From Gammaproteobacteria bacterium (GTDB lineage: Bacteria; Pseudomonadota; Gammaproteobacteria; Pseudomonadales; Azotimanducaceae), in assembly GCA_024640825.1 (NCBI GenBank), contig JAHEEG010000022.1:1-36450 (forward strand): a DNA stretch of 36,450 nucleotides, read 5' to 3'. This document shows, piece by piece, positions 938-36,450 of this stretch; the stretch's first letter is position 1, and every line of letters starts with the position of its first letter. A program made the translations under genes and the position numbers. A model generated the notes under the pieces. The model was given only the letters and a program-made list of their open reading frames with translations. It was not told the origin of the DNA and did no database searches.

Positions 938-1893
938 AGATATCGATGATTGCTGCGGGCCTGCTGTTCCTCTTGAGCCTGCCCGGCCACGCGGAAGAAC
1001 CCGGCGATACGCTGCCAGATTATCAGCGGGTCAGCGGGGTTTCCGGCAACCTTTCCAGCATCGGCTCCGACACCCTGGCAAATTTGATGACGCTCTGGAC
1101 CGAAGCGTTCAAGAAGGCGTACCCCAACGTAAACATTCAGGTCCAGGCCGCCGGGTCCTCCACCGCGCCTCCAGCGCTGACCGAGGGAACGAGCAATCTC
1201 GGCCCCATGAGCCGGGCGATGAAAGACAAGGAGATAGAAGCCTTCGAGGCGAGATATGGCTACAAGCCAACGGCTATTCGCGTCGCCATTGATGCTCTGG
1301 CCGTGTATGTACACAAGGACAACCCCATCCAGTCCATGACCATACCTCAGGTGGACGCCGTCTTCTCGGTTACCCGGCGCTGCGGCGCAGACGCCGACCT
1401 GTCAAACTGGGGACAACTGGGCCTGGGCGGCAGCTGGCAGGATCGGCCCATCCAGCTCTACGGGCGCAACTCCGTATCCGGGACCTACGGCTACTTCAAA
1501 CAGGCGGCACTCTGTTCGGGAGATTTCAAAAACACGGTGAACGAGCAGCCGGGATCTGCCTCCGTCGTTCAGGCGGTCTCCTCTTCTCTGAACGGCATCG
1601 GCTATTCGGGTATCGGCTACGTGACCTCTGGCGTCAAGGCGCTTCCCCTGGCCGAAGTTGAGGGCTCAGACCCGGTTCCGGCGAGCCCGGAAGCGGCGCT
1701 CTCGGGAGACTACCCTCTGTCGCGATATCTCTACGTCTACGTCAACAAGAAGCCTGGTACGGCCCTGGCTCCGCTGGAACAGGAATTTATGAAACTGATT
1801 CTCTCGCGTGAAGGTCAGGATATCGTCGGCAAAGATGGCTATATTCCCCTGACGTCCCGGCTGGTGGCTCGCGAGCTTAAAAAGCTTCAGTAG
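934..1893 (+). CDS. pstS: PstS phosphate ABC transporter substrate-binding protein
   Basis: Periplasmic phosphate-binding protein of the high-affinity Pst system, 319 aa. The N-terminus [20 protein letters not shown] is a Sec signal peptide, with probable cleavage before EEPG. The mature protein shows typical PstS loops: [10 protein letters not shown] early, [11 protein letters not shown], then [11 protein letters not shown] and [11 protein letters not shown], the segments that ligand phosphate in the family. Two cysteines flank the central lobe and could form a disulfide (inference). The start ATG lies inside the phoR stop (4-nt overlap), so translation is probably coupled to phoR and there is no room for a separate promoter. 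pstC follows after 32 nt, with AGAGGGG serving as its ribosome-binding site. Confidence 0.95.
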
Positions 1894-1925
1894 TTTTCTG
1901 CAGGACTGAGTAAAGAGGGGATCTC

Positions 1926-4166
1926 ATGGCGGTTACCGTCAGGCTGTCAAAAATGCCAATGCGTCGACGTCTGGTCAACACCTTGACCCGAGTGGTTGTC
2001 GCCTTGGGCGGCGCGGGCGTGATAGCCGCCATCGTGCTGATCTTCGTTTATCTTCTGTGGGTCGTCGCTCCCATCTTCAGCGCCACGAACATTGAGACTG
2101 GTCTGGCCTATGACCTGCCAGCCGGCGATACGCTGCTCGTAACGACCAACGAAACCGACGAAGTGGGTCTGCGAATCACCCGATCAGGCGACGCTACTTT
2201 CTTTGGCGTCTCTTCCGGCCGTTCTTCCGGCTTCTCTTCTGATCTCAAAAATACGGAACAGGCGAATGCCAGCGTGTCAGACCGCAGCATTTCGCTGGGT
2301 CGTACGCTCGAACGGGTGATCGAAGTCGCCGGGCACACCGGCCTGTATGCAGCGGTGGATACCGATGGTGCGGTTACGATGCTGCAGGCGAGCTATCCGG
2401 TCGCGTTCGACGACGACGTCAGGGTCATACAGCCATCCCTCGACTATGTATTCGAAGATGACTGGCTGGAAGTTGAAGCGAGCGGCGCTCTGGACGTGTA
2501 TTACGGAGACTTCGAGGTGCGCATCGCCAAAATTGACCGGCGCAGCCTGACCATCCACCAGTACCGGGATGCCGAACCCGGGTTCGCACTGGAGTTACCG
2601 CGACGCGGGCGCCTGCAGTTGGATACCGACTACAAGCGCGTACTGTTCGGACCCCGAGGACAGTGGCTCTATCTTTTGGGTGTTGACGGCACCGTAGAGA
2701 TTCTAGATATCGCGCGCCCGACAGCACCGAAATCGATCTACATCGGGCGACTTGTCCCGGAAAACCGGACGGCCACTGCCGTGGAACCCCTTCTGGGCCG
2801 TTATTCTCTACTGGTATCCGACGACGCCGGACTGGTGACTCAATGGTTCGTGGTGCGCGATGAGTTTGGCTATCAATTCAAATCGGCCCGCCGGTTCGAA
2901 CTGGACACGCCCGCCGTAAGGCTTGTCCCGGAGCCAAGACGTAAAGGGTTCGGAGCCATTGACGCTGCGGGCCACATCCATCTTTTTTACACTACGTCGC
3001 AACGGTCTCTGGCAAGTGCCGATCTGGTAACTGAGGATGTCGTCTTTGCCAGCATCGCTCCGCGATCCGATCTGATGCTCACCGCCGCCCGCGACGGCAC
3101 CGTGCAGAGCTATCACCTGGACAACGAGCATCCCGAGATTTCCTGGTCCACCCTGTGGTCCAAGGTCTGGTACGAAGGCTACAGTGAGCCCGTGTACAGC
3201 TGGCAATCGTCATCTGCCGACAATGACTTCGAGCCCAAGTTTTCTCTCACCCCGCTTCTATTCGGCACGCTCAAAGGCGCTTTCTACGCAATGGTATTCG
3301 CAGTGCCGGTAGCGATCATGGGGGCCATTTATACAGCCTACTTCATGGCCCCCTCGATGCGTCGGCTGGTCAAACCGGGCATTGAGATCATGGCCGCGTT
3401 GCCAACCGTGATCCTGGGGTTCCTGGCGGGACTGTGGCTCGCCCCTATCATCGAAGCCAACCTGTCCTCCGTGCTCAGCATCATTCTGGTCATGCCCGTG
3501 GGCGTGATGGTGTGTGCGTGGCTGTGGAGCCGCATTCCGGACGGCATTACGCGCCGCTTCGACGGCTGGTACGGGCTGATGGTTCTGCCGGTACTTCTGT
3601 TGACCATCTGGATTGCATTCGCCATCGGTCCATGGCTGGAAACCCAGTTTTTCGGCGGCGATTCAAAAGCCTGGTTTCTGGAGAACTGGGGGCTCAGCTA
3701 CGATCAGCGCAACGCGCTGGTGGTAGGGCTCGCCATGGGCCTAGCGGTAATCCCGACCATATTTTCAATCGCCGAAGACGCCATCTATGGCGTGCCCACG
3801 CACCTGGTCAACGGGTCACTGGCGTTGGGCGCCACACCCTGGCAGACGCTCATTCGAGTCGTCATGCTGACCGCAAGCCCGGGAATTTTTTCAGCGATCA
3901 TGATCGGCCTGGGAAGGGCCGTGGGCGAGACCATGATTGTCCTCATGGCCACTGGCAACACGCCGGTCATGGATCTGAACATCTTTGAAGGTATGCGCAC
4001 CTTTGCCGCAAACATAGCGGTGGAACTGCCGGAATCTGAGGTAAGCAGCACCCACTACCGGATCCTTTTTCTGACTGCGCTAGTGCTGTTCCTCATCACC
4101 TTCGCGTTCAACACCCTGGCGGAGATCGTCCGACAGCAACTGCGCAACCGGTACGGAAACCTCTAA
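1926..4166 (+). CDS. pstC: PstC phosphate ABC transporter permease, long form
   Basis: Inner-membrane permease subunit that, with PstA, forms the phosphate channel. At 746 aa it is more than twice the length of E. coli PstC (about 320 aa). One N-terminal membrane helix (about residues 25-52) is followed by roughly 380 residues of soluble, beta-rich sequence with propeller-like character. The MetI-type permease core occupies about the last 300 residues and ends with the EAA-type loop [12 protein letters not shown] and the conserved GRAVGETM. Long PstC forms with a periplasmic insert are known in Pseudomonas-type bacteria. What the insert does is not evident from sequence. The ORF ends 2 nt before pstA. 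Confidence 0.93.
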   Translation: MAVTVRLSKMPMRRRLVNTLTRVVVALGGAGVIAAIVLIFVYLLWVVAPIFSATNIETGLAYDLPAGDTLLVTTNETDEVGLRITRSGDATFFGVSSGRSSGFSSDLKNTEQANASVSDRSISLGRTLERVIEVAGHTGLYAAVDTDGAVTMLQASYPVAFDDDVRVIQPSLDYVFEDDWLEVEASGALDVYYGDFEVRIAKIDRRSLTIHQYRDAEPGFALELPRRGRLQLDTDYKRVLFGPRGQWLYLLGVDGTVEILDIARPTAPKSIYIGRLVPENRTATAVEPLLGRYSLLVSDDAGLVTQWFVVRDEFGYQFKSARRFELDTPAVRLVPEPRRKGFGAIDAAGHIHLFYTTSQRSLASADLVTEDVVFASIAPRSDLMLTAARDGTVQSYHLDNEHPEISWSTLWSKVWYEGYSEPVYSWQSSSADNDFEPKFSLTPLLFGTLKGAFYAMVFAVPVAIMGAIYTAYFMAPSMRRLVKPGIEIMAALPTVILGFLAGLWLAPIIEANLSSVLSIILVMPVGVMVCAWLWSRIPDGITRRFDGWYGLMVLPVLLLTIWIAFAIGPWLETQFFGGDSKAWFLENWGLSYDQRNALVVGLAMGLAVIPTIFSIAEDAIYGVPTHLVNGSLALGATPWQTLIRVVMLTASPGIFSAIMIGLGRAVGETMIVLMATGNTPVMDLNIFEGMRTFAANIAVELPESEVSSTHYRILFLTALVLFLITFAFNTLAEIVRQQLRNRYGNL

Positions 4167-32683: not shown

Positions 32684-33699
32684 CCCAGGATACGGGGCTC
32701 GATTTCCAGATCGACCCCGTAGCGGCTAGCCACGTCGTGGCGGATGGCATCTGCCAGGTGAAGTACTTCCGCCGCCGTGGCGCCTCCTAAATTGATCAAC
32801 ACTAAAGGCTGGCGCTGCCAGACTCCGGCACGCCCGTTTTGCTTCCCTTTCCAACCGCAACGATCAATCAGTTGGGCGGCTGATAGCTTAACCATACCGT
32901 GGCCGCTTTCCCGCAAACTCAGATGGGGATGCCGCTGGGAAAGCTGCTCGGCCTGCGCAGTAGGAAGTACCGGATTCTTGAAAAAGCTGCCTGCGTTACC
33001 CTGAAAACGAGGGTCCGGCAACTTACGCCGGCGGACCCGTATAACCGCTTCCGCAATCTGCACTGCCGACGGCTCACCGCAACCCATCATCTGCAGCTCG
33101 TCGCGCAGGTCAGGGTAGCCAACCATCGGCCGCGGTTTCTCAGAAAGTCCCAATGTTATTTCAATAACAATGAATCGATCCGCGTCATGAGCCCTGAAAC
33201 GGCTGTCACGGTAGCCGAAGCCACAGGCGTCCCGATCGAAAACGCGAATCGAACCGTCGTCCAGATCCAACGCCCGCAGACTGACCAACCGGTCCGCGAG
33301 TTCCACGCCGTAAGCGCCGATGTTCTGCATCGGCGCCGCACCCACGGACCCTGGAATGAGCGCCAGATTCTCGAGACCCGACCACCCCTGACCGAGGGTG
33401 TAACGGACCAGATCGTGCCAGGGTTCTCCCGCCGCCGCGGTCACGTTAATAAATCCGCGGGCACCACGCTCCCAACGGATGCCTCGGGTACGCATCAAAA
33501 CAACGGTCCCCGGTAGGTGTGGCCTTAAAACAACGTTGCTGCCACCTCCTAGCACCTGAAAAGGCCGCTTGGTCAGATCTCCAGCCGCCAGCAGATCGAA
33601 GAGCTGCGATTCCTTCTCGATGACCACCAGATGCTCTGCGCTCGCGTGTAGCCCCAACGTATTACAGACCGAAAGATCAACCGCGCCGGTCACGGTCAC
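32674..33699 (-). CDS. murB: MurB UDP-N-acetylenolpyruvoylglucosamine reductase
   Basis: FAD- and NADPH-dependent reductase making UDP-MurNAc, 341 aa, the length of the E. coli type I enzyme. FAD-binding is shown by LGGGSNVVL and [20 protein letters not shown]. The proton-donating Ser is in NAGSFFKNP and the catalytic Glu in EIEPRILG at the C-terminus. The GTG at 33699 overlaps the alkB stop by 4 nt (GTGA). A second GTG two codons on has a better-spaced GGAG, so either could be used. It ends 10 nt inside rne on the opposite strand. Confidence 0.95.
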
Positions 33700-34271
33700 T
33701 CCAGAAACCGGAAGCTGAGATTGATACGTTCAGCCACCGCTCGGCGCGTCTTTGGGAGCGAATGGGGTTCACGGCCATCCAGCAACAGCAATGAGCCGTG
33801 TTCCAGATCCCATCGCACCGACGGTCGGCCTGCACCGGGCCGAGTCAGGAACCGCCGCGCGCCGCCCAGACTCAAAGACGCAACCAGCGGCCGGTGCCCG
33901 CTTTCATCGTCGGTGTGCCAGCCCATGGAATCCTGGCCGTCCCGATAGCGATTCAACAGCACGAAATTGGTCTCGAGCCCGCACCGCGCATGAATTTCCT
34001 GACGCAGCGCGTCCAGCTCGGGATGCCAGCCGGAGCTAAGGTGATCAGACCCGGCATAGCGGTAGTTCAAACCCGGATCACCAAACCAGGAAACGAGCCG
34101 GGGGACTGCGCTGGTTCGACCGTAGAGGCTGAACGTCTCTGATAACCAGACCAATTCCCCGCTCAGGCGTGACAGCAACTGATCTGCCGCCGATCGGTCG
34201 AGAAAACCAGGGCGGTAAAAGTGCCGCCCGCCGGTATTGTTCTCAATCCCCCGCTGCACCAACAATCTCAC
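33696..34271 (-). CDS. alkB: AlkB-type 2-oxoglutarate/Fe(II) dioxygenase
   Basis: Predicted oxidative demethylase that repairs alkylated bases, up to 191 aa. The iron-binding HxD is in GWHTDDE, the second His in GREPHSLPKT, and the 2OG-binding Arg in RINLSFRF at the C-terminus. A nucleotide-recognition lid resembling the ALKBH2/3 class (PRLVSWFGD, YRYAGSDH) precedes it. All possible starts (GTG 34271, TTG 34265 or 34262, GTG 34259) lie inside the end of kdsB, so the overlap is 17-29 nt. It overlaps murB by 4 nt. In Pseudomonas a low-molecular-weight phosphatase gene is found at this place. Confidence 0.9.
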   Translation of the reverse strand: MRLLVQRGIENNTGGRHFYRPGFLDRSAADQLLSRLSGELVWLSETFSLYGRTSAVPRLVSWFGDPGLNYRYAGSDHLSSGWHPELDALRQEIHARCGLETNFVLLNRYRDGQDSMGWHTDDESGHRPLVASLSLGGARRFLTRPGAGRPSVRWDLEHGSLLLLDGREPHSLPKTRRAVAERINLSFRFLE

Positions 34272-35034
34272 GAACCCGCGTCAGGTCTTGCGGCGTATCT
34301 ACACCACCGGGCACCGGGACCACCGCCTCTGCGACGCGGATTGCCAAGCCGAAATCGAGCATTCGCAGCTGCTCAAGCGCTTCGGTGTTTTCCAGAGTGC
34401 TGCCCGGAAGCGCAACGAAACGGGAGAGTGACCGGACCGTAAAACCATAGATGCCAATGTGGCGAAACCAGAGATCAGGCCGCGGCAGCGGGCCGTCTTC
34501 CGCTGGGTCGACCTGCCCGGTGGAAAACTCATCGCGGGCATAAGGTACCGGCGCCCGCGAGAAGTACAGCGCCAGCCCCTGTTGCGATATGACAACCTTG
34601 ACCACGTTGGGGTCGAACAGCGCGCTGCGCCCGGCGAGGGGTTCACACAGCGTCGCCACTTCCACGGAACCCGGCACCTCCAACAGCTCAGCAACCTGAG
34701 CGATAACCGATGGCGGTATCAGCGGCTCATCGCCTTGCACGTTGACCACGCGGACATCGTCAGTCCAACCGCGCTGTGTCGCCACCTCCATCACCCGGTC
34801 CGAACCCGACGCATGATCCACTCGGGTGAGCGCGACTTCATAACCGGCACTGGAAACCGTCTCAGCCACCCGCTCGTCGTCGGTTGCCACCACAACCTCG
34901 CCGGCTCCGCTACGCAGCGCACGAGAAACGACATGCAGGATCATCGGCTGCCCGCAGATATCGGCGAGGGGTTTACCGGGCAGCCGAGTCGAGGCGTATC
35001 TCGCCGGGATGACGACTTTAAAGGGCCGGCTCAT
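34243..35034 (-). CDS. kdsB: KdsB CMP-Kdo synthetase
   Basis: Activates Kdo with CTP for transfer to lipid A, 263 aa. The nucleotidyltransferase N-terminus is VVIPARYASTRLPGKPL. Further conserved blocks are VVNVQGDEPLIPP, YFSRAPVPYARD and RHIGIYGFTVRSL, and the C-terminal metal-binding Asp lies in GGVDTPQDL. The ATG shares one base with the preceding lpxK stop (TGATG), so translation is coupled to the MsbA-LpxK frame. The YcaR/Trm112-type gene found here in many relatives is missing. Confidence 0.96.
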   Translation of the reverse strand: MSRPFKVVIPARYASTRLPGKPLADICGQPMILHVVSRALRSGAGEVVVATDDERVAETVSSAGYEVALTRVDHASGSDRVMEVATQRGWTDDVRVVNVQGDEPLIPPSVIAQVAELLEVPGSVEVATLCEPLAGRSALFDPNVVKVVISQQGLALYFSRAPVPYARDEFSTGQVDPAEDGPLPRPDLWFRHIGIYGFTVRSLSRFVALPGSTLENTEALEQLRMLDFGLAIRVAEAVVPVPGGVDTPQDLTRVREIVGAAGD

Positions 35035-36450
35035 CAGCTGCCGATCCCGTGAACCCGGAGCAATTCCTGCAGCTTCTCTTCCGCACTGGGATCCATCGCA
35101 GTGTCGATCTCCAGGTACCAGCAGTCTTCAGGCACACTGGCCAGACGCCGCAGTTTCGTCGCATCTTTTTCCGTCACCACAACCGGCCAATCATCGTCAA
35201 AGAGAACTTCGTCGCCTCGATACCTATGGTGATCAGGCAGCGGATGTAACTGGGGTTCCAGACCCAGTTCTCGCAAGGTACGTGAGAAGCGGGATGGATT
35301 ACCAATCCCAGCCACCGCATGCACTTCGCGATGCATCTTCACAAAGGCGGCGCAATCCATCCTGTCGGTGCCTGTCACCCGGACAAAAGCTCTTGGCTCC
35401 GCCTGCATCAGGATCTCATTGTCAGCCAGGCCGGTCAGAGCACCGTTGGCAACCACGAGATCCACACCCTGCAGACGACTGAGCGGCTCCCGCAGCGGAC
35501 CTGCCGGCAGGCACAGCCCGTTGCCTGCGCCGCGATAACCATCGAACACGACGATCTCCAGGTCCCGCGCCAGGGCGTAATGCTGAAGGCCATCATCCGC
35601 CACCACAATATCCACCGCGTGCTGTTCCACGAGATGCTGCGCCGCCGCGACTCGGTCCTTACACACAATCACGGGCACACTCGTTCTGGCAGCTATCAGC
35701 GGCGGCTCATCACCAACGTCATCTGGCTCAGCGTCTTCTGTGACAAGCCGGGGTACCGAGCCGGTACCGCCACCATATCCCCGGGACACCACGCCAGGAT
35801 TGAAGCCCGCGGATTTCAGCCAGTTGACCAGCCAGACCACGAGTGGCGTTTTTCCCGTACCTCCAACGGTCATGTTGCCAACGATGACAACGGGCACCGG
35901 CGCGCGCCATGAAGTCTTTTTACCGGTCAGATACGCCAACCGACGGCGTCGCACAAACCAGCGGAAAAGCCAGGACAGGGGGGAGAGCAGTCTCACCCAG
36001 CGCGCGTTCGAATACCAGGCTCGAGCCAGCGGATTAAGCGCCCGCTCAGAGTAGCTGGCAGGAAGCTGCTGTCGCGACTTGGGAAAACGCTTCCAGCCTG
36101 TAAGCGCCTTCGCAGGCTCGGCTGGAGCGCCGTCCGAAAACTGAGCGTCGTAGAGACCCGCATAGATACCGCCTTTCGCAAGCAGCGACTGATGGTCGCC
36201 GGTCTCGACGATCCTGCCGTCTTCCATAACGATAATCAGGTCGGCTTTCTCTATGGTGGAAAGCCGATGCGCGATGACCAGCGTCGTGCGCCCGCGCATT
36301 ACCTCGTCAAGCGCCGATTGAATATGCCGTTCGCTCTCGGTGTCCAGCGCGGAGGTCGCCTCATCCAGAATCAGCAAGGGCGCATCCTTCAACAACGCTC
36401 GCGCTATGGCCACGCGTTGACGCTGACCGCCAGAAAGCAGCACGCCGTCA
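35034..36450 (-). CDS. msbA-lpxK: MsbA (C-terminal ATPase)-LpxK fusion protein, truncated at window edge
   Basis: One uninterrupted frame joins two enzymes. Visible residues 1-104 are the end of an MsbA-type lipid A flippase: signature [15 protein letters not shown], Walker [14 protein letters not shown]-loop VIAHRLST and the usual ending [13 protein letters not shown] linker of about 35 residues (Pro/Ala/Lys-rich) follows. From about residue 139 it is LpxK, tetraacyldisaccharide 4'-kinase: amphipathic N-terminal helix [13 protein letters not shown]-loop [12 protein letters not shown] (189-200), [18 protein letters not shown] and [10 protein letters not shown]. No stop, ATG or TTG lies between the parts. 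The only internal start is a GTG at 35996 without SD, already inside conserved LpxK sequence. The membrane half of MsbA lies outside the window. A sequencing error hiding a stop is the main alternative. Confidence 0.9.
36030..36131 (-). other. Linker joining MsbA and LpxK domains
   Basis: About 34 codons between the last MsbA-like residue (QFSD) and the first LpxK-like residues (LARAWY). They read [13 protein letters not shown] and onward, with basic and Pro residues and no predicted membrane segment. No SD, ATG, GTG or TTG in frame suggests a separate lpxK start. Confidence 0.7.

Follow-up and report, generated by a model that had tools for sequence, protein, structure and literature searches.

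The msbA-lpxK locus

The window, that is, the whole stretch of 36,450 nucleotides that was analysed, holds at its end a minus-strand open reading frame (36449 to 35034) of 471 amino acids, uninterrupted and open at the contig end, which leads from the MsbA signature motif LSGGQRQR to the end of the ATPase domain and then, through about 34 residues, into a full LpxK (Table 1). The share of MsbA within the window is confined to its last ~105 residues. In profile searches, residues 2-105 of the ORF correspond to positions 468-571 of TIGR02203 (MsbA), and residues 152-464 to LpxK (PF02606, E = 3.2e-105). The kinase part lies above the cut-offs of both LpxK families (352 bits against 27 for Pfam PF02606 and 253 bits against 92 for TIGR00682), matches the LpxK structure 4EHX of the PDB (E = 1.8e-24) and has K51, T52, D99, E100, D138, D139 and H261 all present. 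The fusion gene is directly followed by kdsB, the TGA stop codon of the former and the ATG of the latter having one base in common (TGATG at 35036-35032). The initial annotation, made from the sequence alone, had proposed an in-frame MsbA-LpxK fusion with an intact kinase, a stop-free linker of about 34 residues and a coupled kdsB, and all of this is borne out by the uninterrupted frame, the profile matches to both proteins, the P-loop and catalytic residues of the kinase, the direct reading of the linker and the overlap of the two genes.

On the far side of kdsB, an AlkB-like 2-oxoglutarate/Fe(II) dioxygenase protein (identified by reading; 33696-34271, minus strand) is encoded between kdsB and a murB-like gene, within the same run of overlapping genes.

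Table 1. Features of the fusion gene and its neighbour in the window
Feature	Position	Strand	Basis
MsbA ATPase (nucleotide-binding) domain, C-terminal part, with LSGGQRQR, Walker motif and H-loop VIAHRLST; runs off the contig end	36135..36449	-	TIGR02203 468-571
Linker of ~34 residues, without stop and without ATG/GTG/TTG	36033..36134	-	Direct reading, start-codon scan, codon-position pattern
Complete LpxK (tetraacyldisaccharide 4'-kinase) domain, including the N-terminal helix region	35037..36032	-	PF02606, TIGR00682, match to 4EHX
LpxK P-loop GGTGKTP (K51, T52 of Aquifex aeolicus LpxK)	35844..35864	-	Residue mapping
LpxK catalytic pair D99/E100 (GDEP)	35706..35711	-	Residue mapping; roles in PMC6286764
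LpxK DDGLQH (D138, D139, H143)	35580..35597	-	Residue mapping
LpxK D260/H261 (PDHH)	35229..35234	-	Residue mapping
Stop codon TGA of the fusion gene, overlapping the kdsB start	35034..35036	-	Sequence
kdsB (CMP-Kdo synthetase), next gene, outside the fusion	34243..35034	-	ORF and translation; family by reading

Continuity across the contig break

The window corresponds to all of contig C40 in the genome assembly of an uncultured bacterium (4.09 Mb in 296 contigs, 96% complete), and position 36450 appears to be the end of that contig, as judged from the open frames found there and on a second contig of the same genome, C209. The remaining part of MsbA, which the initial annotation had placed beyond the contig end, is the last, open frame of C209 (TIGR02203 positions 1-466), where it is preceded by an ExbD-like frame and where the Walker A motif of the protein is located. 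Against TIGR02203, the gene scores 508 bits on C209 and 198 bits on C40 (positions 468-571). The ends of the two contigs share no long overlap; a one-base overlap would keep the frame, the join itself being unsequenced, and the residues made by it have a form also present in fused relatives at the same place.

In the nearest relative, from the same genus (G004), the whole frame is unbroken over 981 codons, with ~92% identity over the two domains. A single chain with ABC_membrane, ABC_tran and LpxK domains, which had been suggested as a further check, is present in the complete relative P0001 of genome G413, with both NCBIfam equivalogs over cut-off (697 bits for TIGR02203 and 232 bits for the kinase). 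The same frame in congeners and in single-contig genomes rules out a contig-end artefact, and a chance frame is excluded because the architecture is conserved across more than 100 genomes. At the level of sequence, the fusion is thus confirmed as real and not an accident of the window's contig.

Integrity of the two domains

The MsbA half of the fusion resembles known MsbA proteins (TIGR02203; 6BPL from E. coli and 9BD6 from P. aeruginosa) in having the membrane domain, the ATPase domain and all nucleotide-binding motifs, and its best fold matches are MsbA structures. Complete fused relatives exceed the curated TIGR02203 cut-off of 602 bits, as illustrated by P0001 and by L111 (693 bits) and the SAR86 sequence L130 (621 bits), and the Walker A, Q-loop, signature, Walker B and H-loop motifs are found in 79-84 of 84 near-full-length fusions. 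The difference lies at the C-terminus: known MsbA ends soon after the ATPase domain, whereas the fusion adds a linker and a whole second enzyme.

The other half resembles LpxK (PF02606/TIGR00682; 4EHX from Aquifex) over its full length, with the P-loop, D99/E100, DDxxxH, D260/H261 and the N-terminal helix. Among 86 aligned fusions, K51, E100, R119, D138, D139, H143, D260, H261 and K280 are invariant, position 99 is D in 82 and E in 4, and position 52 is T or S. The roles of the catalytic residues have been described, and the N-terminal amphipathic helix is required for activity in Aquifex LpxK (PMC6286764); the sequence of this helix is kept in the window and in its relatives. Unlike the enzyme of Aquifex (4EHX), the kinase of the fusion has no start of its own, and its N-terminus is joined to MsbA instead of being free. 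In all sequence criteria that were tested, neither half departs from the standard of its own family.

An AlphaFold2 model of a fused relative (L111, 983 aa; 16-sequence alignment, mean pLDDT 78, pTM 0.51) shows an MsbA part folded as in solved MsbA structures and a folded LpxK with N-terminal helices at residues 641-648 and 653-676, while residues 614-638, the stretch equivalent to the linker, have pLDDT values below 50. The placement of the domains relative to each other is not reliably predicted in this model. The linker is accordingly predicted to be disordered and both domains to be well folded.

The linker as coding sequence

Across the fusions, the linker measures ~25-35 residues and is variable in sequence. 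Between the window and G004, its substitutions fall on codon positions 1, 2 and 3 in numbers of 5, 6 and 12 over 30 linker codons, with no indel. In this one pair, with small counts, the synonymous rate of the linker (0.46) matches that of the flanking domains, and the nonsynonymous/synonymous ratio is 0.41 for the linker, 0.05 for the ATPase domain and 0.17 for LpxK. The linker sequence is, on this pattern, translated and weakly constrained, since its substitutions concentrate on the third codon position and leave the frame without indels.

Distribution within the family

The window's family (f1) was sampled together with relatives from its order. In the relatives sample, almost all f1 genomes with an LpxK have it in a frame of 939-1050 codons, the exceptions being the window's genome, cut by the contig end, and G034 (435 codons); in genomes from other families of the order, the frames that hold LpxK measure 326-476 codons, with one fragment of 106. 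The initial annotation had regarded msbA and lpxK as normally separate neighbours, which describes the rest of the order well, and had asked whether close relatives keep them apart; the opposite was found, the fusion being old, widespread and the rule in the family. In a sample of 201 f1 genomes, 122 of the 150 listed LpxK lie in frames of at least 900 codons, a count made on frame length alone; a further 7 lie in frames of 450-899 codons that reach past LpxK, and 21 in frames of fewer than 450 codons, several of them cut by contig ends. The fusion is present in seven single-contig f1 genomes (G413, G347, G441, G452, G454, G456 and G494).

In the f1 genomes checked, the fused copy is normally the sole LpxK; in the six complete ones tested for MsbA, no other copy exceeds the cut-off. 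A backup copy of either protein was looked for in complete fused genomes, and none over cut-off was found in those tested. The fused gene must therefore do both jobs if these organisms make lipid A. As for the identity of the family, the sequence of f1 genome G028 is that of L112, a record titled 'K189A clade bacterium', with zero branch length between them on the tree, and NCBI places the K189A clade with HTCC2089 in the OMG group; f1 is for this reason probably the KI89A/HTCC2089 lineage.

Some members of the sample have no LpxK. These are G014, G424, G443 and G458 (genus g11), G017 and G427 (g14), G029 (g26) and G421 (g169) in f1, and G044, G147 and G173 in genus g41 of family f9, all of them 90-100% complete. 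LpxC was not found in any of the LpxK-less genomes tested (all but G173), nor MsbA over cut-off in those of f1, and LptD is encoded in every LpxK-less genome except G029. From this gene content, these lineages look like ones that lost lipid A synthesis and kept the LPS assembly protein LptD, a retention that raises the question of its export substrate there.

Fusions in other lineages

Searching the class with the fused protein gave stop-free, full-length matches in at least eight further family codes (G638, G748, G619, G854, G932, G837, G767, G604 and G752), all of them single frames with both domains. All seven SAR86-titled loci examined are fused, and with G748, G854 and G604, which group with SAR86 on the tree, the SAR86-type total is ten of ten; single members of several other gammaproteobacterial families are fused as well. 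Among the matches listed for 399 phylum-wide genomes, every one spanning both domains had an internal stop.

One candidate was rejected: the 968-codon LpxK frame of G137, in family f38 (L093, G137:C3:65500-71500, 978-3881), is spurious, as MsbA sits in a different, overlapping frame. Long frames alone do not prove fusion in GC-rich genomes. Because such chance read-through occurs, the fusions named here and those on the trees were accepted only with both domains in one frame by profile search. A separate oddity is found in G511 (L103, G511:C251:38000-44000, 2789-3898), where a seeming MsbA N-terminus (MKDSGWSTYRRLL) leads straight into LpxK, without a membrane or ATPase domain. This frame directly follows an exbD-like frame, and no MsbA over cut-off was found in G511; it is either an in-frame deletion inside a fusion or an assembly error.

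Gains and re-separation of the fusion

Trees were built from the concatenated MsbA and LpxK domains only, under a simple model, with compositional bias or long branches in several rows. The ten SAR86-type sequences group together. Both trees also unite f1, moderately supported in the second. In AU tests, joining L186 to f1 plus SAR86 was rejected (p = 2e-70), as was joining L190 to them (p = 0.005), and a single origin shared by f1 and SAR86 was not rejected (p = 0.63). One origin of all fusions is ruled out by the tests on L186 and L190, which point to at least two origins and probably more.

Separate msbA and lpxK genes occur within f1 in genus g55 and in part of genus g8. Forcing the unfused g8 subset outside the rest of f1 was rejected (p = 1e-77), and placing g55 there was not (p = 0.58), so that an ancestral state for all unfused f1 members is ruled out for the g8 subset but not for g55. 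With the g8 subset nested and its outside placement rejected, the simplest reading is that its fusion was split again; g55 may keep the ancestral separate state. At g8 loci L094 and L096, the same frame is kept, with a stop between msbA and lpxK and a new start downstream, and at L095 and L097 the two frames are shifted. In the unfused relatives L204 and L205, the GTG of lpxK immediately follows the TGA of msbA in the same frame (TGA-GTG), so that one substitution would make a fusion. The fusion is not indispensable, because at least one group inside the family has separate genes again.

Proposed function and alternative readings

In E. coli, msbA and lpxK are co-transcribed and co-expressed within the ycaI-msbA-lpxK-ycaQ operon (PMC10328246). 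The fusion consists of the same two genes in the same order, as one open frame where E. coli has two proteins. No natural MsbA-LpxK fusion or complex was found in the open-access literature searched, and a review from 2025 on the regulation of lipid A does not use the word 'fusion'. Some of the fusions may already bear a multi-domain label from automatic annotation. On the sequence evidence, the fusion combines known proteins in a new domain architecture that is conserved and recurrent, without being a new kind of system. It is established as one conserved open frame with intact domains and motifs, recurring across lineages and normally the sole LpxK of its genome.

Under the reading that we consider probable, the stop codon of msbA was lost in an ancestor with adjacent msbA and lpxK, and the resulting gene would encode a single bifunctional inner-membrane protein, in which an N-terminal MsbA half-transporter (membrane domain plus ATPase) is connected to a complete LpxK by a flexible cytoplasmic linker of ~25-35 residues. 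If the MsbA part dimerises as usual, each lipid A flippase would bear two tethered kinases on the cytoplasmic face, close to the membrane surface where LpxK works. There, LpxK would produce lipid IVA, which WaaA and the secondary acyltransferases, whose genes lie elsewhere, would modify before it is flipped by the MsbA part. A single stable polypeptide, its dimerisation, both activities and any benefit are what we infer. The likely outcome would be a fixed 1:1 dosage, with the exporter and the last indispensable enzyme of lipid A synthesis co-localised. A benefit is not obvious, because LpxK and MsbA work at non-consecutive steps. LpxC, LptD, WaaA and LpxL/M-type acyltransferases are encoded in the window's genome, which has two LpxC homologues over cut-off (G000:C189:12078-12890 and G000:C5:708-1520), as does G413 (G413:C1:3081423-3082235 and 1634981-1635790).

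The alternative with the best standing is a neutral fusion, in which stop loss between adjacent, co-transcribed essential genes in the same frame was tolerated, the two halves function just like separate proteins and the tether brings no benefit. This is a real possibility, if not the one that we favour. It agrees with the single mutation that separates the TGA-GTG relatives from a fusion, with a linker that is variable and predicted to be disordered, with the renewed separation inside g8 and with the singletons in several lineages; against it, the fusion has been kept through nearly the whole family and in every SAR86-type sequence examined, and fission is rare although it needs only a stop and a start.

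Production of two proteins from the fused gene, by internal initiation or by cleavage of the linker, is improbable. An in-frame ATG, GTG or TTG does occur in or near the linker at 75 of the 85 fusion loci, and the linker is predicted to be disordered, but the positions of these codons are not conserved and a good ribosome-binding site precedes them at only 3 of the 85 loci, leaving 82 without. The window itself has no such codon in frame from residue 75, in the ATPase domain, to residue 152, in the N-terminal helix of LpxK, in agreement with the earlier view that no credible separate LpxK start exists; an independent start is thus absent from the window and conserved in none of the other fusions.

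Direct passage of the LpxK product to the attached MsbA, with export skipping the intermediate steps, is very improbable. The two proteins do share one chain, and E. coli can stay viable on lipid IVA in some mutants (PMC6286764), but fused f1 and SAR86-type genomes do have WaaA and the acyltransferases, encoded apart from the fusion, which makes a hand-over unlikely, and the linker is long and predicted to be disordered. The initial judgement against channelling is supported by these genes, and co-localisation with fixed dosage is the better reading. An assembly or sequencing error in the window's genome has virtually no chance of being the explanation: the contig break at which the window ends does cut the MsbA ATPase domain, but it lies outside the linker, and the recurrence of the frame in congeners and single-contig genomes refutes such an error for the architecture.

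Implications

Both MsbA and LpxK are targets for antibiotics, and in typical Gram-negative bacteria each is essential for LPS. The fusion matters for annotation because one gene bears two essential functions, a combination that may be missed by single-name pipelines. Fixed in the family and in SAR86-type genomes, present elsewhere too and sometimes undone, it constitutes a natural experiment, and it suggests that being tethered 1:1 to the flippase is tolerated by LpxK or advantageous to it. A bolder proposal, which we regard as rather unlikely, is that the fusion is a real physical unit in which the synthesis of lipid IVA and the export of LPS are coupled, that selection has favoured it repeatedly and maintained it in dominant marine lineages, and that it points to a transient MsbA-LpxK contact in bacteria with separate proteins. 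If this were true, the state of the transporter might, for example, regulate the kinase, or the level of the kinase product might regulate export. With SAR86, an abundant ocean group, among its bearers, the fusion offers a natural case for testing a physical link between making and exporting outer-membrane lipid, and a contact between MsbA and LpxK in standard bacteria becomes directly testable.
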